Positions 17,719-32,219 of a stretch of 32,720 nucleotides of DNA are shown here, one piece after another (positions within the stretch are counted from its first letter, which is position 1; each line of letters opens with the position of its first letter). The notes beneath the pieces were generated by a model, which saw only the letters and a list, made by a program, of their open reading frames with translations, searched no databases and was not told the origin of the DNA. The DNA lies in contig JAOUGT010000013.1 of the NCBI GenBank assembly GCA_029865485.1, positions 1-32,720 on the forward strand. The letters are read 5' to 3'. The position numbers were made by a program, and so were the translations under genes. The DNA comes from Nitrospira sp. (GTDB taxonomy: Bacteria > Nitrospirota > Nitrospiria > Nitrospirales > Nitrospiraceae).

Positions 17719-18711
17719 TCAAAACATCGCTAGTCCAGATGCGTCCAGTGGGGTAAGTATCTCTTCTGTCGGCACATCAAGGCACGGCTTTTCGTGGCAT
17801 TGTCGGACGGCTTCCCAAGATCGGCAGAGGCAGGATGGCCCTCGCACAATCGTCACGTGATCCCCGAGGGGTGCCCACCGATCCGGATCGGTTGGGCCAA
17901 AGACGGCGACGGTACGGACACCGAGGAGAGCCGCCAGATGTGTCACACCTGAGTCATGACCGAGAAAGAACCTGGCCTGCACCAGGACTCCGGCAAGCGC
18001 CGTGAGATCAAGATTTCGTAGAATGAGCGGTCTTCGGCTGCTTGCCTGTAGCACATGTCTGACCGCCTGCTGATCAGCCGGCCCCTCAATGACTATCGGC
18101 AACACCCCTTTCTCATCAAGGCTCTGAATGATGACCGCAAGGGTTTCTGAATTGAGACACTTGTGTGCACTCCCGCTCCCAGGATGCACGAGCACAAATG
18201 TGCGTCCCCGTGGAACCCCTAGACGCTCAAGGCAGACCATGCCCTCTTTGACAAGGCATGAGGGGATTTGAATGAAATGGTCTGAGAAACCATCATCGAC
18301 CGGCTCCTCAACCGTTTCAAGAAAACGATGGCTCTGATGCCTCGCACGTAAGGTGGGAGAAGATGGTGATTGAATTCGTATCTGTGGGACATTCAATTCT
18401 TGGAACCTGGCACGAAGTGCACCAGCGCTGTCTTCCATCCAGGCAACCGCGACATCACATCGGTTCAACCACGTCTCTAGCTCATGCGGTAGCTGGACGC
18501 CCATTGAAAAGAGCCCAACACCGGCTGGTCCTTCCAAGGACATCCAATCATCGATGACGCGACAAGCCCCGAGAAATCGACTCACGGCATCGCGGGCAAT
18601 GAGCAATGTTTCCAGCCCTGAGTACCGAGCATGAAGCCTTCGGATGGCCGGGACCGCCAGCAAGACATCTCCCAAGGAGCCTGGATGCAAGATGATCAAT
18701 GACCGTGTCAT
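17719..18711 (-). CDS. Glycosyltransferase family 9 (heptosyltransferase-like)
   Basis: LIILHPGSLGDVLLAVPAIRRL, VLVHPGSGSAHKCL, FLGHDSGVTHLAALLGVRTVAVFGPTDPDRWAP. Confidence 0.9.
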   Translation of the reverse strand: MTRSLIILHPGSLGDVLLAVPAIRRLHARYSGLETLLIARDAVSRFLGACRVIDDWMSLEGPAGVGLFSMGVQLPHELETWLNRCDVAVAWMEDSAGALRARFQELNVPQIRIQSPSSPTLRARHQSHRFLETVEEPVDDGFSDHFIQIPSCLVKEGMVCLERLGVPRGRTFVLVHPGSGSAHKCLNSETLAVIIQSLDEKGVLPIVIEGPADQQAVRHVLQASSRRPLILRNLDLTALAGVLVQARFFLGHDSGVTHLAALLGVRTVAVFGPTDPDRWAPLGDHVTIVRGPSCLCRSWEAVRQCHEKPCLDVPTEEILTPLDASGLAMF

Positions 18712-19346
18712 GCCAGTTTTGGAAAGTCACCATATCGGTCTTCCAACTGATCTCCAAAGATGGCGCGAGCGCGGTCAAGATCTGACGGTGTGTTGACATT
18801 AAGAAAGGATCGCCCCTCCACATCAATCGTGCGAATCTCCTCCTCCGTGACCAAACGAACACGCAGGGTAGGGTTTGTAACTAGTCTCTGTATCTTCAGA
18901 TTACCGCTGTGCATGAGCGCCTCCACAACCGGCAGGCAGTTTCGGCTATAGACGGCATGAGTCGGCTGAGGTCGCCCGTTCCAATAGGCTAGAACTACAT
19001 CCGACTCGTCCTTTTTGCCGACCATGTATTCTACGAGGCCTGCATGGATAAAGGGCATATCGCAGGCAGCGAGAAAGATATGCTTCGTCATTGCCTGCTG
19101 TAGTCCGGTATACAGTCCACCGAGACTCCCGCAGAATGGGACCAGGTCACGAATGACTGGAATGCGCGCCTCCAGCGCCGGACTATCCTGGGCAATAACT
19201 ATACAAACACGGTCAAACATGTTCGAAAGAACGTTGCAACTCCTTTCGAGCATCGTTCCCCCGCCGATGGCAAGAAAGCGTTTATCAGTCCCCATCCGTC
19301 GACTCTTGCCCCCAGCCAGGAGCACCCCTGAGACATCGCGAATCAT
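18708..19346 (-). CDS. mobA: Molybdenum cofactor guanylyltransferase
   Basis: ORF 18708..19391; start assigned to ATG at 19346 (MIRDVSGVLLAGGKSRRMGTDKRFL) because the upstream ATG lies in a terminator hairpin; CDMPFIH motif; 4-nt overlap with the GT9 gene. Confidence 0.9.
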   Translation of the reverse strand: MIRDVSGVLLAGGKSRRMGTDKRFLAIGGGTMLERSCNVLSNMFDRVCIVIAQDSPALEARIPVIRDLVPFCGSLGGLYTGLQQAMTKHIFLAACDMPFIHAGLVEYMVGKKDESDVVLAYWNGRPQPTHAVYSRNCLPVVEALMHSGNLKIQRLVTNPTLRVRLVTEEEIRTIDVEGRSFLNVNTPSDLDRARAIFGDQLEDRYGDFPKLA

Positions 19347-19366
19347 GGATGAATTACCTGCGAAAT

Positions 19367-19399
19367 AAAAAAGGGGGTGGGTTACCCCCACCCCCTTTT
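19367..19399 (-). terminator. Rho-independent terminator of the cytochrome/oxidase operon
   Basis: AAAAGGGGGTGGG-TTACC-CCCACCCCCTTTT, 13-bp stem; on the minus strand followed by a T run. Lies 36 bp past the stop of the 19435 gene. Confidence 0.92.
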
Positions 19400-19434
19400 C
19401 AGTTTACAGCACCTACTCCCGTTTCAAATGAGAA

Positions 19435-21228
19435 CTACAGTGTCTTTCCTCTTTTCTTATTCGAACGTCGTGTCAAAACCCAGCCCTCCAGAAGAACCAC
19501 ACCGACTGCAATGACGACCGGATAAATGTAGGTCTCCTGTGGAACAGGTGGATTCATGAAGGTGTAGTAGAATGCCGACACGGCCATCTTCCGTCCTGCA
19601 TCACCATTATGGCCATCCCAGGCAAAGAAGACGGTCGGAATATATTGGCCTACTTCAAAGAAGGTATCTTCATCGTAATCTTGATCCTTCTTATTTCCGA
19701 CAGGCCGCTGAATCATGACATACCACCGGCCATTCAACCATTCAGCCTTGAGAAGCTTCATCGCCTCTTCATAGTTATCCCGCTCTTCAAAATCCTTATC
19801 CCAGCCAGTCCCTTTGAAGGCACGCAGGGACCCATCCGCCTCCCACTTGACGATGTCCATGGGGAACTGTTCGTTCGTCCCGAACAGGTACCGTGGCTTG
19901 ATCGGCGCTGGAAGCTCTTTCCACTTGACTGCGGTCTCAATGGCAATGGCGTCATTATAAACCGCATAATTATTCTGTTGCGCGGCAATGGATCCTTCTT
20001 CACCGGTCTTCGGGTCCTGTTCCTTGATATCGATATTGACTTGGGTTGGAGCCCAAGGGAGCTTCCCCTCTGCCACACTCTTCGTTCTGTCATCCCACTC
20101 GAGCAGGTAGACAATGTATTTATCGTTATAGAGCGATCGCACCCAAATATCGTCCAGTCGATTGACAAAGTTTCTCGGCTTGTGGGTAATCTGCCCACCC
20201 ATGGCCACATATCGTTTTGGAGCCTTCTTCCATGCTTCATTCTCAAGATCGGTCGGGATTTCTCCTTCAACCATATCTGATGGAATGACGAAATTTATTT
20301 TGGGCTTATCAGTCAGAGGATCGATTGGTAAGGGATTACCCAGTGGATCTCGCTCACAAAGAGAATTAACAAAATTGGCAATATCCCAGCGCTCATCAAC
20401 GGTCGTGTTGTCTGCAAACGAAGGCATTGGCGTGCCGTTCACACCAGTTGAGAACGTTCTGAAAATGTTGGACACGTTGTACGGATCCTGACGACTCCCA
20501 CGGAAATTCCAACACTTATGCCAATTAGCCGGCTGAATGGAGAAGCCCCAGTCATCCTTGAGATTGAAGGCGTTTCCATCACCCCGGCCTTCCATGCCAT
20601 GACATTCAACGCACTTTTTTTCGACGATTAACTCACCACCACGCTTCCTGCTTTCATCGGTGGCCGGCTTCGGCTTCAAATCAGCCAACTGCAGCACGGT
20701 CTGACTTTCTGACTGCTTATCGGTGAATTTTCTATCTTTGACGAGCTGGGTCGTCACAAAAGAGAGGACTTGTTGACGCTGTTCCTCGCTCAAGATACCT
20801 TCCCACGGAGGCATCGCGGATCCGGGCAGACCATGCGTCACAGTTTCAAAGAGATCGTTTTGACCGGGGATCGGCTTCTTGGCATCAAACAAGGGCAACT
20901 CTCCGCTGGCCGTATGCCGAATCTTAAAAGTTCCCTGATTGAAGTTGCGTGGGCGAGGCCAGAGACGGTCGGCACCAGGCCCGTCACCTGCCCCGTCGAC
21001 CCCATGGCACCACACACATTTGGTAAAGTAGACTCGTTTCCCTGCTTCAATCATTTCTGCGGAGGGTTCAGCTGCAAGCTCTCCTTTTTTAAATCCCTCA
21101 GGGAGCCCTTGCGCTGAAACTGACGAATATCCAGCACTCGATACTAAAACCACTCCGAAGGCTGCAGCCGCGATGATCCCGGCCTTCTGAGTTATACTGT
21201 CCATCATGTTTAGCCTCATAATCTTCAT
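19435..21228 (-). CDS. Membrane-anchored diheme c-type cytochrome with C-terminal NxrC/ethylbenzene-dehydrogenase-gamma-like domain
   Basis: ORF to 21330; likely start 21207-21228 (signal peptide MMDSITQKAGIIAAAAFGVVLVSSAGYSSVSAQ). CVWCH and CVECH heme sites; large C-terminal domain (DLENEAWKKAPKR...VYLLEWDDRTKSV...); C-terminal TM. Confidence 0.85.
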   Translation of the reverse strand: MKIMRLNMMDSITQKAGIIAAAAFGVVLVSSAGYSSVSAQGLPEGFKKGELAAEPSAEMIEAGKRVYFTKCVWCHGVDGAGDGPGADRLWPRPRNFNQGTFKIRHTASGELPLFDAKKPIPGQNDLFETVTHGLPGSAMPPWEGILSEEQRQQVLSFVTTQLVKDRKFTDKQSESQTVLQLADLKPKPATDESRKRGGELIVEKKCVECHGMEGRGDGNAFNLKDDWGFSIQPANWHKCWNFRGSRQDPYNVSNIFRTFSTGVNGTPMPSFADNTTVDERWDIANFVNSLCERDPLGNPLPIDPLTDKPKINFVIPSDMVEGEIPTDLENEAWKKAPKRYVAMGGQITHKPRNFVNRLDDIWVRSLYNDKYIVYLLEWDDRTKSVAEGKLPWAPTQVNIDIKEQDPKTGEEGSIAAQQNNYAVYNDAIAIETAVKWKELPAPIKPRYLFGTNEQFPMDIVKWEADGSLRAFKGTGWDKDFEERDNYEEAMKLLKAEWLNGRWYVMIQRPVGNKKDQDYDEDTFFEVGQYIPTVFFAWDGHNGDAGRKMAVSAFYYTFMNPPVPQETYIYPVVIAVGVVLLEGWVLTRRSNKKRGKTL

Positions 21229-21262
21229 TATGTTTCGTTTGGCATTCTCGGGGATATAGCGA

Positions 21263-22306
21263 CTAATCCCAAGTCCGTGGATAGTATCCGGTGTGCCAAT
21301 ATTCAAACAAAACGACTTTCCAAATTTCATCCACGGTCAGGTGCTGTTCCCATGGTGGCATGACTGAAGCCCACGGGAATCCTTCATTGGGTAATCCAAT
21401 TCCACCCTTCGAAACACGCCAGAAGATAAATGTTTCCTGCAACTGGGCGATTGTTCCTGGATCGGTAAAATTTGCCGGAATTGGATTGAACGCAAAGGCG
21501 TGCAGCCCTCTACCATTCAGATTGTCACCATGGCAGAAATGACAGTTCTGAAAGAATATCTCACCACCCTCTCGCACATACTTCAGATAACCCTGATTCT
21601 TGTCGTCCCATGGGTTGGCATTGGGCTTCATCAAGCGCCCCATACCTTGCTCGACAATATTGGCGTTTGAGAACTCCTGATCATACTTCCCTTCCGGATT
21701 GACGCGGTAAGGGTTCTGAGATGTCTGCAGGGTATAGGTCTTACCATGCACTTTTGTGCTGGCAGGAGGGGCAGGATGTACCGTTCGCAACTCAATAGGT
21801 TCCTCCGATTTCGGCATCATGGCATTGAAGGAGAATCCCCCGATCAAAATCGGCAAGAGCACAAGATAGAGATAACGTAATAGCCTTTTCCCACCCGTTT
21901 GGGCATCAAGTACGTTTAGGATGGGTTGCTTGAATTTCGTCCAGTCCTCTTCATTCGCGGATATCCACATGAACACCGTTACAAGTCCAACTGTCCCGTA
22001 CATCGCACGCACGCTGAATGGGATTGGCGGGTAGACGCGATATTTGAGATAAACCATCAAAAATACCCAGAAGCCAATCCCTTGCCAAAAGCGTGGGAGA
22101 GCCATCCCCATAGCATTCATCATGTAGCTCAGCCCAGTAAAACCAATTACATAGCATGCCACTTCAAGCAGCAGCTGGATCGGCATATACCCTTCAACCA
22201 ATCGCACAGTAGTGGATGGAACAATATCAAAGAACATCCCACCGAGCAGGAGCAGCCCCGCTACTCCAATCAATGCACCAAGTGACATCAAAGCTTTCAT
22301 CGGCAA
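21263..22306 (-). CDS. Membrane protein with C-terminal monoheme cytochrome c domain
   Basis: Several N-terminal hydrophobic segments followed by GGEIFFQNCHFCHGDNLNGRG (CxxCH) and an ASVMPPWE axial-Met-like segment. Confidence 0.88.
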   Translation of the reverse strand: MPMKALMSLGALIGVAGLLLLGGMFFDIVPSTTVRLVEGYMPIQLLLEVACYVIGFTGLSYMMNAMGMALPRFWQGIGFWVFLMVYLKYRVYPPIPFSVRAMYGTVGLVTVFMWISANEEDWTKFKQPILNVLDAQTGGKRLLRYLYLVLLPILIGGFSFNAMMPKSEEPIELRTVHPAPPASTKVHGKTYTLQTSQNPYRVNPEGKYDQEFSNANIVEQGMGRLMKPNANPWDDKNQGYLKYVREGGEIFFQNCHFCHGDNLNGRGLHAFAFNPIPANFTDPGTIAQLQETFIFWRVSKGGIGLPNEGFPWASVMPPWEQHLTVDEIWKVVLFEYWHTGYYPRTWD

Positions 22307-22342
22307 ACTCCCTTTACTCTCCGCATGACAAACAACCGGGTC

Positions 22343-23653
22343 CTAGGAAATCTTTGGTGGTGGCGCTCCGGTTTTCACTTGCGATAAGTAGTCAACGATT
22401 TTTTTCAATGCTCCAGCGCTCAATTTCTGGCCGAAAATGGCCGGCATGGTCTTATCCGGGAATGGCTTAACAACATAGGCGCTTGGATCAACGATGGACT
22501 CCATAATATATTCAGCCGGTGATTTTGCTGTGCCCTTGTACGCCGGATCCTTTATACGCTGTGCGGCAGTGGTCCCTTCCTCAAGCTTCGGACCGATCGT
22601 CCCCATGGCACCTGGAATACCAGGAATGGTATGGCATGACACGCACTGAGCTTTGGCAAAAATTTGATCAACAGGCTCTGATCCATCTGCCAGCAGTGAC
22701 GTGGCTCCCGCAGGTTTATCATCTGCCTGCTTCGGACGGTCAGCCTCAGGAACAAACTTCTCATACGACTTCACGATGTCATCGAATGATGGAGGCTCAA
22801 CTCCCTCCCTGGCGTACATCCATGTATCAACTGCCGCAAGCTCTGCGAGACTAAGAGAGATTGGCGGCTTATGAATCGAGGGCATCGGGCTTTCTTTATC
22901 GTTCGTACCTTTCACACCATAGCCAGCAACAACATAGCAACTAGGACAGGCATGTGACTCTGCAATATATTCCTGTATGGTCTCTGCAGTGCCTGAACCA
23001 GGGAATGCTTCCTTGACAGAATACTCACGCTTTGACGGGTTACCCTTAGAGTACTTGGGGTCTTCTAAGCGCTCCTTGCGGGTTGGCAAACCCAACAAGT
23101 TTGGCGCTCTCTCACCGAGCATACCGGCATGGAAAGCATGGCAAAGCGGACATTGCCCCTTACCGATCGCACCTTGCTCCTTATTCTTTCCGACGCCGCC
23201 AAAGATAATTTCCTCACCCTTGTCAGCCAGCTGCTGAGTGGACATGGTTTCCCACGTAACCTTCTCCTCTACCGGCGGAAAGCCACCTTCCACTTGGGGA
23301 AGCCAATTCCCATAACCGGACAGGAACGCAGCCACGAAGAACATCATGCCACCGATCTTCAGAAGGGCACTGAGATTGGTGAAGTAGAGGGCCATGATGA
23401 AGGTTGTCACAGTAATCATGACTAACGAAACAGGAAGCAACCGGCTTTCGCCGTAAAAGTTAGTCTTGTAATTGGCGATCGCCATAAACAGGAGGAAGCA
23501 GGAAATAATCCCAATGAACGTCTTAAATACTGCGCGCTTCTTCGCAGCAGGGTCGCTGATGGACACCTGAAAATACACGAGCAATCCCCCAAGGATGGCC
23601 ATAGCCATCCAACCCATCGACAGTGCTTCTGTAATCAAATTACCCAAGGTCAT
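22343..23653 (-). CDS. Membrane protein with tandem cytochrome c domains (2 CxxCH)
   Basis: N-terminal TM segments; GQCPLCHAFHAG and AQCVSCHTIPG heme sites in two similar domains. Confidence 0.88.
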   Translation of the reverse strand: MTLGNLITEALSMGWMAMAILGGLLVYFQVSISDPAAKKRAVFKTFIGIISCFLLFMAIANYKTNFYGESRLLPVSLVMITVTTFIMALYFTNLSALLKIGGMMFFVAAFLSGYGNWLPQVEGGFPPVEEKVTWETMSTQQLADKGEEIIFGGVGKNKEQGAIGKGQCPLCHAFHAGMLGERAPNLLGLPTRKERLEDPKYSKGNPSKREYSVKEAFPGSGTAETIQEYIAESHACPSCYVVAGYGVKGTNDKESPMPSIHKPPISLSLAELAAVDTWMYAREGVEPPSFDDIVKSYEKFVPEADRPKQADDKPAGATSLLADGSEPVDQIFAKAQCVSCHTIPGIPGAMGTIGPKLEEGTTAAQRIKDPAYKGTAKSPAEYIMESIVDPSAYVVKPFPDKTMPAIFGQKLSAGALKKIVDYLSQVKTGAPPPKIS

Positions 23654-23731
23654 GACCTCCTACAGCTACAACTTCGCGTGGCGACATGTCCCCACACCGT
23701 CCGTTGAGCCGACTATCAACGAAGACACAGG

Positions 23732-25648
23732 TTAATGACTGGGAGCCGGCTGCGGAACACTACCAGGTATTCCAGCCTTAGACTCAACCGGAACCTTCTT
23801 TGCTGTTAAGCTACCCAACCAAAACACAAATAGAATTGTAATCCAGAAAAACAACACGTTGGCTGAAATCATGTTGGCGGCAAATCCCACCGTATGGGTA
23901 TAGGCCCATGGAGAATTGTCCCTCATGATTTCATTGACATGCCAGAAAAGCCTAACCGACGAGCGGATATAGCCCATCAATCCCATCATCCAGGTAAATG
24001 CGGTCGCCAACATAATTAGGGCGTATTGCGAGCGGGCTGAAATCTTGCCCCACTCAATCGGCCCCATTTGCTTGGCGCCCTTCATCATGAAGCTATTCAA
24101 CGCAAACATGAAGAAGAGACACGACAAAGTCGTCGCCACCTGGGGAACTGAGAGACCGACCCGTACATTTGCCGGAATGTAATAGCCGTACACGGCAAGG
24201 AAGATAATATTGAAATACGCGCAGCCGAAGAACACGCCCATAAAGATGTTACCGAACTTTGCCCACGATACAGTTGAAACTTTGTTCCCTCGCATATACC
24301 AGACAAAGCTCAACACCGTGGTGGTAATAATGACGTTAATGCCTCCGTTTTTCGCAGACATAACCCCATAGTTACCTAACACTGGGTGCTGTTGACCTCC
24401 CATGGCTTTTAGCTCTGCCGGAGTCATCACCATAGTGTGCGGGGTGATGAAGACCATATAGCCGCAGGCAAGCAGGAAGACCAGATACTTAATATAGCGC
24501 TGATATTTCTCTGCCCCACGCATACGACCCATGGCCTGCCAGAGATAGTAGTTGGTACTCAAGAATAGGATACCGATCATGGTGGCCTGAATAATAAACA
24601 ACCAAGCAAGCAGACCACCCATTAACGTAATACCCATTTGCTGACGATAGGCATACACCTCACGCATGAGCCAGTATCCGGCGAATGGCAAGGGGATTAG
24701 AAACGCGACACCCAATGCCATAGCGATGTAACCCATCCAGTCATAATGAGCACGATCCTCATCCGTTTTTGAGGCCAAAAACTTGTACGCAGCATAAGCC
24801 GCGACAACACCGCCTCCGAATGCCATATTGCCAAGGATTCGGTGGAGGTTAAGGGGATTCCAAAGTGCGGTGTGAATCACGTGCCAAATATTTCCGAGAT
24901 AGCGTCCCTGCTCATCAACACCAGCCGGGGACATCATGAAACCGATCCAGGAGTTTGCGAGGAACATGAGCAGTGTTCCGATGACGTTCAACACCACCGA
25001 CATGCTCAAATGAATCCACTTCAGAAAACCCTCCTTCATCTTGTCCCAACCATAATAATAGATATAGAGGGTTCCACTCTCCGCCACAAACATCAATGCG
25101 TAGATATGCATGACGGGGCGGAAGATACCCGACAGATACGAGAAAAATGCCGGATACAGAGTTAGAAAGGTAAAGATCAGAATACCGCCAAGGATTGCCG
25201 TAAGAGAGTAAGCCGTAAGACTGATCTTAATGAAGTCATAGGCCAGCTGATCATACCGCTTAGCAAGCGCCTTATCTTTTGTTACGACCCCCATGAACTC
25301 GATAATCATGCAGAAGATCGGCACCGCCAGCACAAAGCTTCCATAATAGAGGTGCTGCTGGTTCGCAAACCAGAGCAATACACGACTCTCAAAGTTATAC
25401 CTGGGATAATCCTTAACACCATCCGTCGTCTTAGGAGCGGGGGCACCAGAGACAATGCCTTCAGTCTTGTAATAAACATCCCGACCCTTTTCGACTTTAT
25501 CCCCATCCTTCTTCGCCGCATCGCCAGCATGAGTCTCTTCACCAATAGCCAGTGAAGGCAACGCCACGACGACCGGAAGCAGAAGGAGGCCGACCATCAT
25601 GCAGAGCGCCACAATCGAAAATACGCGCTTGCCGACTAAAAGGCCCAT
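23732..25648 (-). CDS. Cytochrome bd-like (CydA-related) oxidase subunit, paralog A
   Basis: Polytopic 638-aa protein; AESGTLYIYYYGWDKM...LANSWIGFMMSPAG resembles the CydA block FFLESTFLGLWFFGWDRL...ANSWMQxPVG; close paralog of the 29201..31075 gene. Confidence 0.85.
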   Translation of the reverse strand: MGLLVGKRVFSIVALCMMVGLLLLPVVVALPSLAIGEETHAGDAAKKDGDKVEKGRDVYYKTEGIVSGAPAPKTTDGVKDYPRYNFESRVLLWFANQQHLYYGSFVLAVPIFCMIIEFMGVVTKDKALAKRYDQLAYDFIKISLTAYSLTAILGGILIFTFLTLYPAFFSYLSGIFRPVMHIYALMFVAESGTLYIYYYGWDKMKEGFLKWIHLSMSVVLNVIGTLLMFLANSWIGFMMSPAGVDEQGRYLGNIWHVIHTALWNPLNLHRILGNMAFGGGVVAAYAAYKFLASKTDEDRAHYDWMGYIAMALGVAFLIPLPFAGYWLMREVYAYRQQMGITLMGGLLAWLFIIQATMIGILFLSTNYYLWQAMGRMRGAEKYQRYIKYLVFLLACGYMVFITPHTMVMTPAELKAMGGQQHPVLGNYGVMSAKNGGINVIITTTVLSFVWYMRGNKVSTVSWAKFGNIFMGVFFGCAYFNIIFLAVYGYYIPANVRVGLSVPQVATTLSCLFFMFALNSFMMKGAKQMGPIEWGKISARSQYALIMLATAFTWMMGLMGYIRSSVRLFWHVNEIMRDNSPWAYTHTVGFAANMISANVLFFWITILFVFWLGSLTAKKVPVESKAGIPGSVPQPAPSH

Positions 25649-25718
25649 GGAATACCTCCTTAATACACCACGTTAAATGTATGATTTTCAGAATACTCGA
25701 CAACACCTTCAGGAGGGC

Positions 25719-25850
25719 TTAGTTCTTGAAGAGATACCAGAAGTCCAGCCCTTGCATATCCATGAGGTAGTGATCAACCATCACAAAATAACCAACGGTA
25801 ATAATTAGAGAAACAACAAGTGCAATGACTGGATTGTTAAGTGCGCTCAT
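25719..25850 (-). CDS. 43-aa single-TM small protein, candidate small oxidase subunit
   Basis: Read directly: MSALNNPVIALVVSLIITVGYFVMVDHYLMDMQGLDFWYLFKN*; GAGAGGAAGAAA RBS immediately upstream of ATG. Below the ORF-track length cut-off. Confidence 0.8.
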   Translation of the reverse strand: MSALNNPVIALVVSLIITVGYFVMVDHYLMDMQGLDFWYLFKN

Positions 25851-25935
25851 TTTCTTCCTCTCCTCTGTCGACCAGTGCCATCAATCAGTTAAGCTGGACA
25901 GACCCACCCCGCACAAGACAAACCCTACGAAAAAC

Positions 25936-26058
25936 TCAACAAGGGCACTGAATACCAGCAAACCAATAGAAGAACCATAGTCCGACAGCACAAGTAATGT
26001 AAAAAATCATCTTCCCGACTTTTACCTTAAGCTCGCTATCAGGGGTAGCTGTTGCCAT
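25936..26058 (-). CDS. 40-aa single-TM small protein with C-terminal CPC, candidate small oxidase subunit
   Basis: Read directly: MATATPDSELKVKVGKMIFYITCAVGLWFFYWFAGIQCPC*; upstream GGAG RBS-like sequence. Below the ORF-track cut-off. Confidence 0.75.
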   Translation of the reverse strand: MATATPDSELKVKVGKMIFYITCAVGLWFFYWFAGIQCPC

Positions 26059-26186: not shown

Positions 26187-26291
26187 GTGTCGAAAAACTC
26201 AAAAGTGTTTGACATTATAGTTTTGGCTGGAATGGTTGTCAATATCATTTTGGCCGTGTTTTTGATCCTCTACTACTTTGATTTCCTGTGA
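26187..26291 (+). CDS. 34-aa single-TM small protein
   Basis: Read directly: (GTG)MSKNSKVFDIIVLAGMVVNIILAVFLILYYFDFL*; GGAGAG RBS about 7 nt upstream. Overlaps the 3' end of the opposing gene by 47 bp. Confidence 0.65.
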   Translation: MSKNSKVFDIIVLAGMVVNIILAVFLILYYFDFL

Positions 26292-27192
26292 GTTCTTCCG
26301 GTTTTTTCTTCTCTTCTCCTACCGCATCAACGGTCGAACTTGCACAGCGAAATCCGATCGTTTCATCTCGGAAATCCGGCATCATTTTACTTCGGCTGGT
26401 AATCCGAACATCTCCTCCGCTCGTGGTATACCCACCGCCACGAAGGACACGATAGGTTCCGTACTCGGGACTCGGTGGATTCTGCTCCGGTGAGCTCTTA
26501 TAGTAAGTCTCATCATACCAATCAGCCACCCACTCCATGACATTGCCCGCACCATCCATCACTCCATAAGGACTCTTGTCACTCTGAAATGTGCCGACAC
26601 GTGCCGACGCTTCATGACCATCGTGTACCCGAGCCCAATTCGCCCCATCGGGTTGCTCACTATCCCCCCATGGCCAGAGCCGTCCGTCCGTACCGCGCAT
26701 GGCCTTTTCCCATTCGGCTTCAGTAGGAAGCCGCTTGCTTTTCCAACGACAGTATCCATCGGCGTCCTCCCAGGACACATAGACGATGGGCTGATTAATA
26801 CCACGCACCTTGGCCCCACTCTTGGCATAGCGCGAAGGCAGTCCTGGTTTTCGATGCCCCGTAGCCAGAACAAACTGCTGATACTGGTAGTTCGTCACCT
26901 CGTACCGATCAATCGCGAACGCATCCAGATAGATGGTTCGTTGCGGACGCTCATCGAACCCCCCACCCTCAGTTCCTCGAACAAACGGCCCCGCTGGAAT
27001 CGTGACCATCTCACTCGAAAGAGGTTCTTCTCCGGGAGCACTCTCAGCCATCGACACCACTTCGACAGTGGCATCAGACATGGACTTTTCATACGGCGTA
27101 ACCGTCGTCCCTCGCATGATGGCTACGATAGGCATAGCGGCGCACGCCAACACCACAAATAAGAAGACAAGTTTAAATTTTGAATCGAGCAT
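26245..27192 (-). CDS. Membrane-anchored SUMF1/FGE-fold protein (copy 1)
   Basis: N-terminal TM; MVTIPAGPFVRGTEGG...DAFAIDRYEVTNYQYQQF, RLPTEAEWEKAMRG, DGAGNVMEWVADWY, TIGFRCASS. Confidence 0.9.
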   Translation of the reverse strand: MLDSKFKLVFLFVVLACAAMPIVAIMRGTTVTPYEKSMSDATVEVVSMAESAPGEEPLSSEMVTIPAGPFVRGTEGGGFDERPQRTIYLDAFAIDRYEVTNYQYQQFVLATGHRKPGLPSRYAKSGAKVRGINQPIVYVSWEDADGYCRWKSKRLPTEAEWEKAMRGTDGRLWPWGDSEQPDGANWARVHDGHEASARVGTFQSDKSPYGVMDGAGNVMEWVADWYDETYYKSSPEQNPPSPEYGTYRVLRGGGYTTSGGDVRITSRSKMMPDFRDETIGFRCASSTVDAVGEEKKKPEELTGNQSSRGSKTRPK

Positions 27193-27205
27193 GCCGGCCT
27201 ATCAC

Positions 27206-28135
27206 TCAATTCTCAGCTGAAGCTGGATCCAAATCACTCGCACAGCGGATACCGATCGTGACATCAGTACGCCAATGCTTAGCGGCAAACCGCTTGGACA
27301 ACCTTGCGTGATGCTCCGTCTCTCTCCAAGAGCCCCCTCGCACGACTTTCAGGTCCGCATTCTCCGGCCCTTTCGGGTCACGAAACGGAGATTTCTTGTA
27401 ATAACTCTCGTCGTAGGAATCCTCAACCCACTCTGCCACGTTCCCCGTCATGTCGTGAATGCCATAGGGGCTGCGACCAACCTCGAATGATCCGGGAGGA
27501 GCCAAATACTTATACCCATCCTCCGCACCATCGACATTGGCAGCATTGACGACAAACTTATCCCCCCATGGATACCGCCTCCTACTCTCACCCCGCCCGG
27601 CTTTCTCCCACTCCGCTTCCGTAGGCAGACGCTTCCCCGCCCATTTGCAGTAGGCAGCCGCTTCATCCCACGACACACTCATCGCCGCAAGCTCGGGTTT
27701 CAAGATTTTTGATTGATCATCATCAAACACCTCGATTCTCGGCATCCCTCGCTTCGTCATCTTGGCAAACCGCTGATATTCCTGCTGCGTAACCTCGTTC
27801 CGATCGATGTAGAACCCTTTCAAATAGACCTGGTGCTCAGGCGCCTCATCGGGATCACCATCATTACTTCCCATCGTAAAAGGCCCTTCCGGAACCTGCA
27901 CCATTTCCCGCCCTTCATCTCCGATCCTTGTCTTGTACATGGAGAAATCCTGAACAGGCAGACTGCTGGCCGCCGGTCGCACTTCCGATTTCACCGATGC
28001 CGCAAGCTGTTTCATCTGCTTGGCCTTATAGGATTCGTAGGCCAACAGACCGATCATGAGAAAGAACGATGCAAACACGAAAATGATGGAGCCAACTAGG
28101 ACACCCTTATTTTCCACAAATACCTCGACAATCAA
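27206..28135 (-). CDS. Membrane-anchored SUMF1/FGE-fold protein (copy 2)
   Basis: N-terminal TM; MVQVPEGPFTMGSNDGDPDEAPEHQVYLKGFYIDRNEVTQQEYQRF, RLPTEAEWEKAGRG, DMTGNVAEWVEDSYD, TIGIRCASD. Confidence 0.9.
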   Translation of the reverse strand: MIVEVFVENKGVLVGSIIFVFASFFLMIGLLAYESYKAKQMKQLAASVKSEVRPAASSLPVQDFSMYKTRIGDEGREMVQVPEGPFTMGSNDGDPDEAPEHQVYLKGFYIDRNEVTQQEYQRFAKMTKRGMPRIEVFDDDQSKILKPELAAMSVSWDEAAAYCKWAGKRLPTEAEWEKAGRGESRRRYPWGDKFVVNAANVDGAEDGYKYLAPPGSFEVGRSPYGIHDMTGNVAEWVEDSYDESYYKKSPFRDPKGPENADLKVVRGGSWRETEHHARLSKRFAAKHWRTDVTIGIRCASDLDPASAEN

Positions 28136-28147
28136 CTCCCATGAATT

Positions 28148-28507
28148 CTATGACGACGACGTCCCAGCCTGTTCTGCCGCCGCTTTCTTCGCTGCGCGCA
28201 CATCGAGCAACATCGAAATCTGCACACCAAGAAATCCACCCATGGCCGCTCCTGCGCCAGCTCCGACCCAGATCCGATCAGCACCGGCCATCAACCAGGC
28301 CAGCAGACCACCGCTGACCGTGCCGACAAGAATACTCACGAGAAACCGGCGACCACCAAGAAAACCGATCACCACACCGAGCGCAAGCCCAACGAATATG
28401 GCGACCGGCATCAGCCCCCCGCCCATCGTCGTCCCGATCAGGGTCCCAACCGTCCCCATCACGACGATTCCGAGGACAATATCGACGACCTTACGACTCT
28501 CCATCAC
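28148..28507 (-). CDS. Small Gly-rich multi-TM membrane protein of unknown function
   Basis: 119 aa with repeated Gly-rich hydrophobic helices, in tight operon context. Confidence 0.7.
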   Translation of the reverse strand: MMESRKVVDIVLGIVVMGTVGTLIGTTMGGGLMPVAIFVGLALGVVIGFLGGRRFLVSILVGTVSGGLLAWLMAGADRIWVGAGAGAAMGGFLGVQISMLLDVRAAKKAAAEQAGTSSS

Positions 28508-28534: not shown

Positions 28535-29194
28535 TCACTTCCCTGGAAGGGCGACAAGCGGACCAAAATCGATCTCCACCCCAGGCGCAGCGATAATCGA
28601 GATGCCCCAGGCTTTTTCCGCCGGTTCATGCTTGTGAATCCGCTTAAAGTCCTCGTACACATTGACCCGTTCCTCAAACCACTGTCCGATCTCCTTCGTC
28701 CCAGACTGGACAACGATCTCCGACCCACTGAACATCCCGCCTTCGGTCAAAGTGCCCTCAGGTTTCGATTCACTCCACACATACTTCGTGAATACCGGGA
28801 TAAACAGGAGGTCTGTATCAAGGGATGCATAGACGGCAGCCATTGGTTCGTTTCCCGTCGCAGCCTTGGTCAGACGCCATCGCCACGTCAGAACCGGATA
28901 GGCCTTAGGATCCCAGTCAATTTTCTTCTTCTTGATCCGCTGTCCCGCATCTTTGGCCGACAAAAAACTGACCCCGTTCTCAAGCCCTACCTTATAGGCA
29001 TCGCGGCCCTTTGTTTGACTTCGCTGGTTCTCATGTTCCCAAAGGGAAGGAAACCCATCCGCCTCTTTTGCCTGAAAATCTTCCAGCACCAGCGTCGGCT
29101 CTCCCGTGATTGCAGGCGTCACCCCACACACGAGAACGATCAAGCCGAGCACGGCTGCCGCAGCCATCAACACCGTACGTATCATGCCATGCAT
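28535..29194 (-). CDS. DUF3047-like exported protein
   Basis: Signal peptide-like N-terminus, then LVLEDFQAKEADGFPSLWEHEN...YPVLTWRWRLTKA...AAVYASLD, consistent with DUF3047. Confidence 0.7.
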   Translation of the reverse strand: MHGMIRTVLMAAAAVLGLIVLVCGVTPAITGEPTLVLEDFQAKEADGFPSLWEHENQRSQTKGRDAYKVGLENGVSFLSAKDAGQRIKKKKIDWDPKAYPVLTWRWRLTKAATGNEPMAAVYASLDTDLLFIPVFTKYVWSESKPEGTLTEGGMFSGSEIVVQSGTKEIGQWFEERVNVYEDFKRIHKHEPAEKAWGISIIAAPGVEIDFGPLVALPGK

Positions 29195-29200
29195 CCCTTT

Positions 29201-31057
29201 CTATGTTTCTTGCGAGGGAACCGGAGTCAGTAACGGTGACTCCTTCTCGCTCACGTCCTCAACCATCACCGGCTGCTGGCCCCGCTCACACATCCAAAAC
29301 AGCGCGAGCACCGCTGCCCAGAATACCACCATATTGAGCGTCACCATCTTGGTCGCATATTGGAGATCCGGGGTAAAGGCCCAGGGAGAGACATCAGCCA
29401 TCAATTCACTGACGTGCCACGACAAGCGCCCCGAAGAACGGATGTACCCCATCAACCCCATCACCCAACTGAACGATGCCGCCAACCCAAAGAGTCCGAC
29501 CATACCGCGTAATGGAATCTTTCCCCACTGAATCGGCCCATGCACCACCGCACGCCTGAGCATCAACCGATTGATCACGACCCCGACCACAATCACCGTG
29601 AACGTGGTGAAGGCTTGCGGGGCGGAAAGACCGACACGAACTTTTGCAGGCAAATAGAATCCGTAGATGGACAACCAAATGATGTTGATAGCGCCAATCA
29701 CATAGACCATGGTGATCACAATATTTCCGATCTTGACCCACGAGATCGTCATGGTGCGGTTTGCCCGGCGGTAGTAGAGGAAGCTCAGCGCGGTCACGAG
29801 GATAAGGATATTGACCGCTCCGTTCTTGGCCGACATCACTCCATAGTTACCGATGACCGGATGTTGCGCGCCTCCCATCGCCTTGGCTTCACTGGCGGAT
29901 GTGAGCAGCGTGTGCGGCGTCAACCAAATGAAGAGCGCGAGCATCAACACACCCAATAGGAGTTGGTAATAGGGCTGATACCGCTCTCCGCCCTTGATCC
30001 GCGCCATGCTCTGCCACAGATAGTAGTTGATCCCCAAAAACAAGACACCGATCAAGAGGGCCTGCACCACAAAGAGCCAGGTGAGCAGTCCACCCATCAT
30101 CGTCACCCCCATGGTCTGACGAAACACGAAGACCGACTTCATCAGCCAATACCCGGCGAACGGCATGGGAATGAGGGCGCAGACCGTGACGAACAGGAAC
30201 ACATATCCGACCCAATCGAAATAGGCCCGCTCTTCATCGGTCTTGCTGGTAAAAAATCGGTAACAGGCATAGGCGAGCACGACCGCTCCACCGGACATCA
30301 TATCCGCCAGAAAACGATGGACATTCAAAGGATTCCAGAGTGCGGAGTGCAACAGATGCCAGACGTTCCCCAGAAACCGGCCCTGCGCATCCACCCCGGC
30401 CGGCGACATCATGAAGGCCGACCACGCATTCGCCATCATCAGCAACGCGGTCCCCACAATATTGGTCAGAATCCCGATCGCAGCGTGAATCCATTTCATG
30501 CCCCGGTCTGTCATCCGGTTCCAACCGTAGTAATAGATCACCAGCAGGAGAGCTTCTCCAAAAAATACGGCGGCATAGGCCGGCATGAATCCTTTGAATG
30601 TTCCGCCCATATACTTCATGAAACTCGGATAGAGCGTGATAAACATCGTCAACATCAGACTGCCGATCAGTGCCGTGACCGACATGGCCAAGACCGCCAC
30701 CTTCGCAAGATCCCTCGCCAGACCATCGTACCGAAGTGCCAGGGCGGGCTTTTTCGTGATCAGCCCCAAAAACTCGAGCAAGGCGCAAAACAGCGGCAAA
30801 GCGAGAACGAATCCTCCAAAATAGGTATGTTGCTGCGTCACAAACCACACGAGCAGCCGACTGTCCAGTGAGCCAACTTGAGGATAGACCGTTTCCTGAG
30901 GAGTGGGAGCTGCTGGCCCCTGCGGAATGCCTTCGGTTCCAAAATAGACATCGGTGGATGAGTTGGCAAAGCTCAAATCGAGACCATGCCCCGGCCAGCC
31001 AAGGGTGATCAAGACAAATGCGATGCATATCGCCACACGAAGCAGGGAAGCGTTCAT
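29201..31057 (-). CDS. Cytochrome bd-like (CydA-related) oxidase subunit, paralog B
   Basis: ORF to 31075, likely start 31057 (MNASLLRVAICIAFVLITLG). VFFGEALLLVIYYYGWNRM...MANAWSAFMMSPAG; collinear with paralog A along its length. Confidence 0.85.
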   Translation of the reverse strand: MNASLLRVAICIAFVLITLGWPGHGLDLSFANSSTDVYFGTEGIPQGPAAPTPQETVYPQVGSLDSRLLVWFVTQQHTYFGGFVLALPLFCALLEFLGLITKKPALALRYDGLARDLAKVAVLAMSVTALIGSLMLTMFITLYPSFMKYMGGTFKGFMPAYAAVFFGEALLLVIYYYGWNRMTDRGMKWIHAAIGILTNIVGTALLMMANAWSAFMMSPAGVDAQGRFLGNVWHLLHSALWNPLNVHRFLADMMSGGAVVLAYACYRFFTSKTDEERAYFDWVGYVFLFVTVCALIPMPFAGYWLMKSVFVFRQTMGVTMMGGLLTWLFVVQALLIGVLFLGINYYLWQSMARIKGGERYQPYYQLLLGVLMLALFIWLTPHTLLTSASEAKAMGGAQHPVIGNYGVMSAKNGAVNILILVTALSFLYYRRANRTMTISWVKIGNIVITMVYVIGAINIIWLSIYGFYLPAKVRVGLSAPQAFTTFTVIVVGVVINRLMLRRAVVHGPIQWGKIPLRGMVGLFGLAASFSWVMGLMGYIRSSGRLSWHVSELMADVSPWAFTPDLQYATKMVTLNMVVFWAAVLALFWMCERGQQPVMVEDVSEKESPLLTPVPSQET

Positions 31058-31079
31058 CCTGACTCCTCGGCCCATAGAT

Positions 31080-32147
31080 CTACCCCTTCATACCGGTCTT
31101 ACCGAGTACCAACTCGCCAGTGGTATCAGTGGAACCAACCGTTTTACCAAGAATCCCCATCACAAACGGGCACCGTAACATTCCACTCGACAGTTGAGGC
31201 GCCTGTTCATTTTCAATATGACGGCGATCACCCAGATAATAGCCATATAGAGCCATGAGGGCTGTCACGACTGCGCCCATTACAGCGGCCGAACCCACCG
31301 TGATCGTGGATTGCTTGATGACAAACAACAGTAATCCCATTGCGACCAGGTAATAGGTCGAGGCAAAGGCCATCCCAGGCCACCACCAATATTTGACCAG
31401 CTCACCCGGTGCGGTCCGGCGAAGCGTCTGCACCCATGACGTGGAGGGATAGAGCCCACCAAAATACGCGCAGAGCGTCACCCCTCCACCGAGCACGGTC
31501 ACGGCGAACAACTGGGCCAACGCCGCCCCCTGAATATCCGCGATGAGCATCCCAGGAAGGGCTGCCAGCACACCCAGACCAAGTCCGGCAAGAACCCACG
31601 GCCCCAGCTGCCCCGTCTTGTACTGCAGCAACATCCGAAGTGGTGCTCCATCAGGGAAGGTGAGAAATGGCCGCCCCATCTGCGAGAGGCGGCGCACATG
31701 CCCAATTTCAAATGCATCACGTGCGACGGACGTACAGGAGATGATGATCGCCATCATCGCCGGTCCATCGGGATGCTGAAGATAGCTATAGTTCATGATC
31801 CACAGCAGCGTCAGCACCAATAAAGAGAGCTGTATGCCATAGACGGCACCGATCCATCCGACGAGCCAGCTGAGCAACCGGGCGCCGTCGTGGCGGACAA
31901 TCTCCGACCAGGGTGCAGCACGCCCAACCCGATAGGCCAAGACCGCCGTGACCATGGCGACCAACGCACTCACCGCCAAGAGCACCAGAGGCTCACCGAT
32001 CGGAACAAGATGTTTGGCAAGGCGATAGATCCCGAAAGCGATCAGGCCCGGAACAAACATCACGATTCGTTTTTTCTTGCGCACGGCCTCTTCCGTCACT
32101 GCCAAACTTAAACTTGGAAGCACCCGCAACGCCATTCGATGTAACAT
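31080..32147 (-). CDS. Polytopic membrane protein of unknown function
   Basis: ORF 31080..32195, start likely near 32147 (MLHRMALRVLPS); many hydrophobic segments; 22 bp from the start of the oxidase B gene. Confidence 0.75.
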   Translation of the reverse strand: MLHRMALRVLPSLSLAVTEEAVRKKKRIVMFVPGLIAFGIYRLAKHLVPIGEPLVLLAVSALVAMVTAVLAYRVGRAAPWSEIVRHDGARLLSWLVGWIGAVYGIQLSLLVLTLLWIMNYSYLQHPDGPAMMAIIISCTSVARDAFEIGHVRRLSQMGRPFLTFPDGAPLRMLLQYKTGQLGPWVLAGLGLGVLAALPGMLIADIQGAALAQLFAVTVLGGGVTLCAYFGGLYPSTSWVQTLRRTAPGELVKYWWWPGMAFASTYYLVAMGLLLFVIKQSTITVGSAAVMGAVVTALMALYGYYLGDRRHIENEQAPQLSSGMLRCPFVMGILGKTVGSTDTTGELVLGKTGMKG

Positions 32148-32173
32148 GATTAACTCGTCAGGTGTAAACCCTG

Positions 32174-32219
32174 AGGGGTGAGGCGAGAAATACAATTGTT
32201 CTCCTTACACTTCACCCCT
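32174..32219. repeat. Intergenic inverted repeat, possible terminator-like hairpin
   Basis: AGGGGTGA (32174-32181) / TCACCCCT (32212-32219) with inner GAGAA/TTCTC, between the 32226 stop and the likely 32147 start. Confidence 0.5.

Follow-up and report, generated by a model that had tools for sequence, protein, structure and literature searches.

A conserved Nitrospira operon combining a CydA-like protein, c-type cytochromes and micro-proteins: a putative cytochrome-c-fed oxidoreductase complex

Introduction

How do high-potential electrons reach O2, or travel back to quinone, in Nitrospira, a group of major nitrite oxidisers to which the comammox bacteria also belong? The question is a long-standing open one because most of these organisms lack a haem-copper oxidase. 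It is raised by a 32,720 nts stretch of a Nitrospira sp. genome (contig JAOUGT010000013.1, called here the window; genome 86% complete, 3.5 Mb), in which a minus-strand operon joins a CydA-like protein, bd3, to three c-type cytochromes and two micro-proteins. We propose that this operon encodes a periplasmic cytochrome-c-fed oxidoreductase complex of the OR-N family, most likely reducing O2, and give this reading roughly an even chance (about 0.5).

The core of the locus is already described. The N. moscoviensis study reports a cluster of bd-like_3, two cytochromes c and alt_NxrC_2, with bd-like_4 nearby, and describes the cluster as conserved in Nitrospina and in anammox bacteria (PMC6606698). 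The bd-like_3 / alt_NxrC_2 cluster and bd-like_4 are published matter, and anchoring of nitrite oxidoreductase (NXR) and reverse electron flow have been suggested before (PMC6606698, PMC3578206, PMC8026999). An earlier note on the window had cautioned that the oxidase class might be known; for this four-gene core the caution was justified (PMC6606698).

Gene content of the operon

The six open reading frames (ORFs) listed in that note are all present on the minus strand, in the order given there. They encode a 40-aa and a 43-aa protein, each with a single transmembrane (TM) segment (mp40, 25936-26058; mp43, 25719-25850), the 638-aa CydA-like OR-N protein bd3 (bd-like_3, 23732-25648), which is devoid of a Q-loop, a 436-aa membrane dihaem cytochrome c with tandem CPLCH and CVSCH domains (22343-23653), a 347-aa polytopic membrane monohaem cytochrome c with a CHFCH site (21263-22306), and alt_NxrC_2 (19435-21207). 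The latter combines a dihaem cytochrome c (PF13442/PF00034 twice) with a C-terminal EB_dh (NxrC-like haem b, PF09459) domain and a C-terminal TM segment; the two other cytochromes are likewise recognized by Pfam. The start previously listed for alt_NxrC at 21330 is less likely than that at 21207 (590 aa), which is preceded by a GAGG Shine-Dalgarno sequence, results in a plausible signal peptide and removes the overlap with the neighbour gene. Membrane attachment of the cytochromes held, except that the two upstream ones are not singly anchored: according to hydropathy they are polytopic, with 4 and 3 hydrophobic segments. The subunit set had also been called complete; the six genes stand, and an antisense micro-gene (mp34) and an upstream second CydA-like gene (bd4) of the same conserved locus had been overlooked.

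Gene order was invariant in about 118 Nitrospiraceae loci (some being the same genome fetched twice) wherever the contig was long enough, N. moscoviensis (L140) included, and conservation across relatives, which the note had named as a check, is borne out. The conserved arrangement comprises 12 genes: (membrane protein)-bd4-DUF3047-glycine zipper-FGE2-FGE1-mp40-mp43-bd3-dihaem-monohaem-alt_NxrC, FGE standing for formylglycine-generating-enzyme-like protein. The monohaem protein found a match in 60/60 family genomes, in a few of them only to the paralogue or a fragment.

bd3 resembles CydA but lacks the quinol site

bd3 matched PF01654 with 55.9 bits (cut-off 26.2; 3.7e-15), and Foldseek searches with the predicted model ranked CydA chains first for fold. 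The AlphaFold models of bd3 and bd4 are poor (mean pLDDT 55 and 56) and too low in confidence to judge haem-site geometry. In alignments H99, E190 and H269 of bd3 correspond to H19, E107 and H186 of E. coli CydA; these counterparts are invariant in bd3, and H99 and H269 are so in all paralogues and relatives aligned. The counterpart of E. coli H126 is kept too. Three further residues, H570, M305 and E330, are conserved in most OR-N paralogues and are candidate haem ligands. The Q-loop quinol residues K252/E257 have no counterpart in the aligned bd1-bd4, and neither CydB (PF02322) nor a haem-copper oxidase over cut-off was found in the 86%-complete genome. CydA ancestry without CydB, and departure from a canonical quinol oxidase, were thus correctly recognized before. 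Judged from these features bd3 fits the OR-N description: CydA-like, without quinol site or CydB, and encoded with cytochromes c. OR-N proteins are discussed as putative cytochrome-c-fed CydAA' oxidases (PMC12342949, PMC10839748).

The operon carries five CXXCH sites (2+1+2), as had been counted previously, and supply of electrons by the c-type haems, the evident donors, is supported. All five are kept in nearly all loci and in relatives from other orders of the class, the single site of the monohaem protein in 110/113 loci. The NxrC-like domain of the last protein was recovered marginally (PF09459, 34.1 bits against a cut-off of 33.3), while TIGR03477 matched partially and well under its cut-off. 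The dihaem part of alt_NxrC matches PDB 6H5L_B (4e-40) and the 436-aa dihaem protein is homologous to Kustd1711 from anammox bacteria (PDB 7ZS0, 3.8e-12). Identification of 6H5L itself with Kustd1711 was considered and rejected, Kustd1711 being 7ZS0. The haem potentials of Kustd1711 lie near +350 mV (PMC11791136). Haems of such potential in its homologue would suit O2 reduction and would be uphill to quinone, which favours an oxidase.

The operon is not specific to NXR

Among the 296 Nitrospirota genomes searched, 15 from other orders of the class were examined for bd3: 14 gave a strong match (59-67%) and the last a weaker one. None of these 15 has an NxrA match better than ~5e-5; NxrA of the window's own genome lies at L208:1114-4551. 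In 12/12 class-level loci read, bd3, dihaem, monohaem and alt_NxrC genes follow one another in this order with five CXXCH. Haem-copper oxidase was missing over cut-off in 12/15 of the class-level genomes and CydB in all, and in two (G169, G297) no CydA-like match besides bd3 was obtained. Independently of this work, JACQCE01 and JACQBZ01, which are neighbouring orders, are described as NXR-negative (PMC12342949).

The operon is not NXR-specific, because as a whole it occurs in class-level genomes without convincing NxrA; an NXR-specific role is contradicted by its presence there together with micro-genes. This weakens the published argument tying conservation of the operon to oxidation of nitrite. 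It suggests that nitrite oxidisers reused a high-potential respiratory module of more general function. A link to NXR exists in places, some Nitrospira having an extra bd3 paralogue just upstream of nxrAB. One locus (L203, G033:C1:2312500-2331500) carries an FGE-like gene, a bd3 paralogue (79% identical), nxrA and nxrB in tandem on one strand; in another genome (G221) a bd3 paralogue directly precedes nxrA.

These copies, together with the NxrC-like domain of the last gene, argue for a complex that mainly tethers NXR to the membrane and accepts its electrons, bd3 being a structural or electron-relay subunit. High transcription of alt_NxrC_2 on nitrite (PMC6606698) points the same way. Against it, the same study gives the cluster an expression level unlike that of NXR, and genomes devoid of a convincing NxrA contain the whole operon. 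We thus regard a dedicated NXR anchor as improbable.

O2 reduction or reverse electron transport

A cytochrome-c-fed OR-N complex would consist of bd3, three membrane-attached c-type cytochromes whose five haems face the periplasm, and single-TM micro-subunits, in one membrane assembly. The cytochrome c / NxrC-like domains would take up electrons from periplasmic high-potential donors; the dihaem and monohaem cytochromes would hand these on to the b-type haems of bd3, where they would most likely reduce O2. In nitrite oxidisers NXR would be one source of electrons; the complex would not be tied to NXR and probably predates it. Of the cytochrome c-fed or NXR-fed oxidase suggested earlier, the first half remains the best reading and dedication to NXR does not; O2 reduction by bd3 is plausible, yet unproven. 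Complex formation and electron path are likewise inferred.

Several points weigh against this proposal. E. coli E99 aligns to Tyr, M393 to Gly and E445 to Leu in bd3, the C-terminal alignment being uncertain. The published terminal-oxidase candidate is another pair, bd-like_1/2 (OR-N1/OR-N2) (PMC12342949), and a homologous cluster has been reported from anammox bacteria, which are strict anaerobes (PMC3578206, PMC6423088). Moreover, no biochemical data on any OR-N protein were found in the literature surveyed.

The first three of these (for the alignment, the missing clear counterparts of E445 and M393) also count in favour of a serious rival, reverse electron transport to quinone by this same complex. 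It has been proposed for the cluster in N. moscoviensis (PMC6606698) and N. gracilis (PMC3578206), and in anammox bacteria transcription of the homologous cluster is reported to drop with that of NXR in the absence of nitrite (PMC6423088). Against it, the known quinol-site residues are missing in bd3, and the operon encodes no complex III, no Rieske protein and no partner known to bind quinone, which sets it apart from the paralogous cluster on contig C191 of this genome. Occurrence of the operon in NxrA-lacking relatives also speaks against it, though those may need reverse transport too. On this evidence we consider reverse transport rather unlikely, and keep the cytochrome-c-fed oxidase as the preferred explanation.

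A conserved promoter and terminator delimit the six genes

A sigma-70 promoter, TTGACA-N17-TATAAT (26214-26242, minus strand), matches the consensus at 12/12 positions and starts 184 nt upstream of mp40. It is one of four perfect sites of this type in the 3.5 Mb genome. The match is 12/12 in 106 of the 107 Nitrospiraceae loci with sufficient upstream sequence and 11/12 in the remaining one; shuffled sequences reach at most 10/12. A 12/12 promoter is also present in the four other Nitrospirales loci read (families f2 and f3), and in class-level relatives outside Nitrospirales the best match in the mp34 region is 7 to 11 of 12. The leader matched no Rfam family. At the other end, a Rho-independent terminator with a GGGGG stem and a T-run (19373-19389, minus strand) closes the operon; a terminator-like hairpin follows the last gene in 104/108 loci, against 3 when shuffled.

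Because promoter and terminator bound them, the predicted transcription unit, from mp40 to alt_NxrC, comprises exactly the six genes named above, which fits published transcript data. A single unit ending at the terminator, as the earlier note had described, is in this way supported as a sequence-based prediction.

Three micro-proteins, one of them antisense to the promoter

mp40 and mp43 are genuine coding genes, judging from their ratios of non-synonymous to synonymous substitution (dN/dS): median 0.075 over 268 pairs for mp40 (+1 frame control 1.72) and 0.065 over 281 pairs for mp43 (+1 frame control 1.08). Both also have class-wide homologues. mp40 ends in FFYWFxG(I/V)(Q/N) followed by CPC, the CPC end being invariant in 108 sequences. 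The C-terminal motif of mp43 is VDHxxMxxQGLD(F/Y)WY, with the QGLD(F/Y)WY part nearly invariant. Neither protein belongs to a Pfam or NCBIfam family, and no family match to CydX was obtained.

Three-base periodicity around the promoter revealed a third, antisense frame, mp34 (26187-26291, plus strand; GTG start, Shine-Dalgarno GGAGAG), opposite to the operon. Its 34-aa single-TM product, MSKNSKVFDIIVLAGMVVNIILAVFLILYYFDFL, gave only sub-threshold and unrelated Pfam matches. It is encoded at 107/107 loci with a pooled pN/pS of 0.065. The same bases thus carry three functions: the mp34 frame on the plus strand, and the FGE1 3′ end and operon promoter on the minus strand. In the 107 loci, taken without filtering on the promoter pattern, codon wobble bases of mp34 within both hexamers were 100% invariant, those of an Ile ATA included, while codons in the spacer or beside the hexamers varied at wobble (GCC/GCT/GCA/GCG, GGA/GGT/GGC, AAT/AAC). 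Since wobble sites are frozen in the hexamers yet variable in neighbouring codons, both constraints act, promoter and mp34 protein each being under selection. A hyper-conserved promoter as regulatory DNA alone was ruled out by the periodicity, the antisense gene and this wobble test. A perfect promoter, an antisense micro-gene and the end of a neighbour gene overlapping make an unusual, well-conserved case of multiply constrained DNA.

The mp34 profile also found matches in class-level relatives (6e-16 to 3e-5), which do not have the perfect promoter embedded in the frame. These relatives usually have two small TM ORFs upstream of bd3, with the related motifs WFFYWF and DWxxMxxQGL. A phylum-level relative (L202) has three consecutive small TM ORFs on the operon strand, with a weak mp34 match (E 0.007).

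CydX is a comparable single-TM micro-subunit of canonical cytochrome bd. By analogy mp40, mp43 and probably mp34 would form a structural part of the complex, like CydX and similar peptides in other oxidases. In the literature passages searched, neither the micro-proteins nor the antisense gene nor the embedded promoter came up; the three micro-proteins and the promoter overlap provisionally look new, as do presence of the operon in NXR-lacking relatives and the loss of two residues in bd4. A fixed subunit list with three micro-proteins, together with predicted transcript boundaries, provides a concrete complex to seek in membranes. A wider proposal would join all these elements: a haem-copper-free, cytochrome-c-fed OR-N oxidase with three micro-subunits, ancestral to Nitrospiria, independent of nitrite oxidation and with expression tied to a micro-subunit via the promoter inside its antisense frame. 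In this full form we offer it as tentative.

bd4 and the genes around the operon

Upstream of the operon, all on the minus strand, lie the membrane-anchored FGE1 (26245-27192; PF03781, 3.6e-57), FGE2 (27206-28135; PF03781, 2.1e-55), a small glycine-zipper membrane protein (28148-28507; PF05433 below cut-off), a DUF3047 protein (28535-29194; PF11249, 2.6e-16), the second CydA-like protein bd4 (bd-like_4, 29201-31075; PF01654, 70.5 bits, 1.4e-19) and a polytopic membrane protein (31080-32195; weak DUF4010 match below cut-off). Synteny supports FGE2, the glycine-zipper and DUF3047 proteins and the polytopic protein.

bd4 is 49% identical to bd3. It has M305 replaced by V in 9/10 sequences and E330 by S/A in 10/10; apart from one exception, both residues are retained by the other OR-N paralogues examined. 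These losses would be consistent with a degenerate CydA' partner. Accordingly, bd3 and bd4 could form a CydAA'-type heterodimer fed by the cytochromes, bd4 taking the place of CydB, an arrangement that would suit the oxidase and the reverse-transport readings alike. Within the order, bd4 belongs to this 12-gene locus in all cases where the contig is long enough, and an OR-N1/OR-N2 pairing has already been proposed for the other cluster (PMC12342949). This sits less well with class-level relatives, where bd4 is not beside the operon and where just one CydA-like match was obtained in each of two genomes. In addition, bd4 lies outside the promoter-to-terminator unit, and a ligand role of M305/E330 is itself presumptive. 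The tree does not settle in which order bd4, bd3 and the class-level groups branched off. The heterodimer is a possible arrangement, which we place somewhat below even odds.

FGE1 adjoins the operon in the longer relatives and is also upstream in class-level loci where the contig allows. The two membrane-anchored FGE-like proteins (26245-28135, minus strand) have a counterpart preceding the nxr-linked bd3 copy (L203). Two class-level loci (L194, L195) carry a further bd-like gene, 43-44% identical to bd3, divergent beside the FGE gene of the operon. On the other side, a MobA-like molybdenum-cofactor nucleotidyltransferase (18708-19391, minus strand) follows the operon terminator; it is located downstream in N. 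moscoviensis (L140) too.

Comparison with known systems

The N. moscoviensis cluster (alt_NxrC_2 = NITMOv2_3640) has the same genes, order and neighbour, bd3 and alt_NxrC of its locus (L140) being 92% and 84% identical to ours. The main text describes no more than a bd-like oxidase, two cytochromes c and alt_NxrC_2, and the passages found leave micro-proteins, FGE-like neighbours and embedded promoter unmentioned (PMC6606698). The anammox kustd1708-1713 and Nitrospina clusters likewise combine a CydA-like protein with dihaem and monohaem cytochromes; unlike the window operon, they are located with nxrAB (PMC6423088, PMC3578206).

With canonical CydAB, bd3 shares membership of the CydA family and the N-terminal haem-ligand histidines. 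The operon differs in having neither CydB nor a Q-loop, and in its extra TM helices and five c-type haem sites. Contig C191 of this genome (L005:8026-18991) holds its two other CydA-like genes alongside those for complex III, in a cluster of bd-like_1, Rieske, cytochrome b, bd-like_2, TM cytochromes c, alt_NxrC_1 and a dihaem cytochrome. Its parts are paralogous: after a CydA-like protein come TM cytochromes c and an EB_dh-like protein; this cluster (bd-like_1/2, OR-N1/OR-N2) differs from the window operon by its complex III genes, and no homologues of mp34, mp40 or mp43 were found there. Finally, TO_1 of the Manganitrophaceae, non-nitrite-oxidising Nitrospirota, is described as a bd-like protein with a periplasmic cytochrome b and is proposed as an oxidase (PMC9040806); TO_1 may be of the window operon type.

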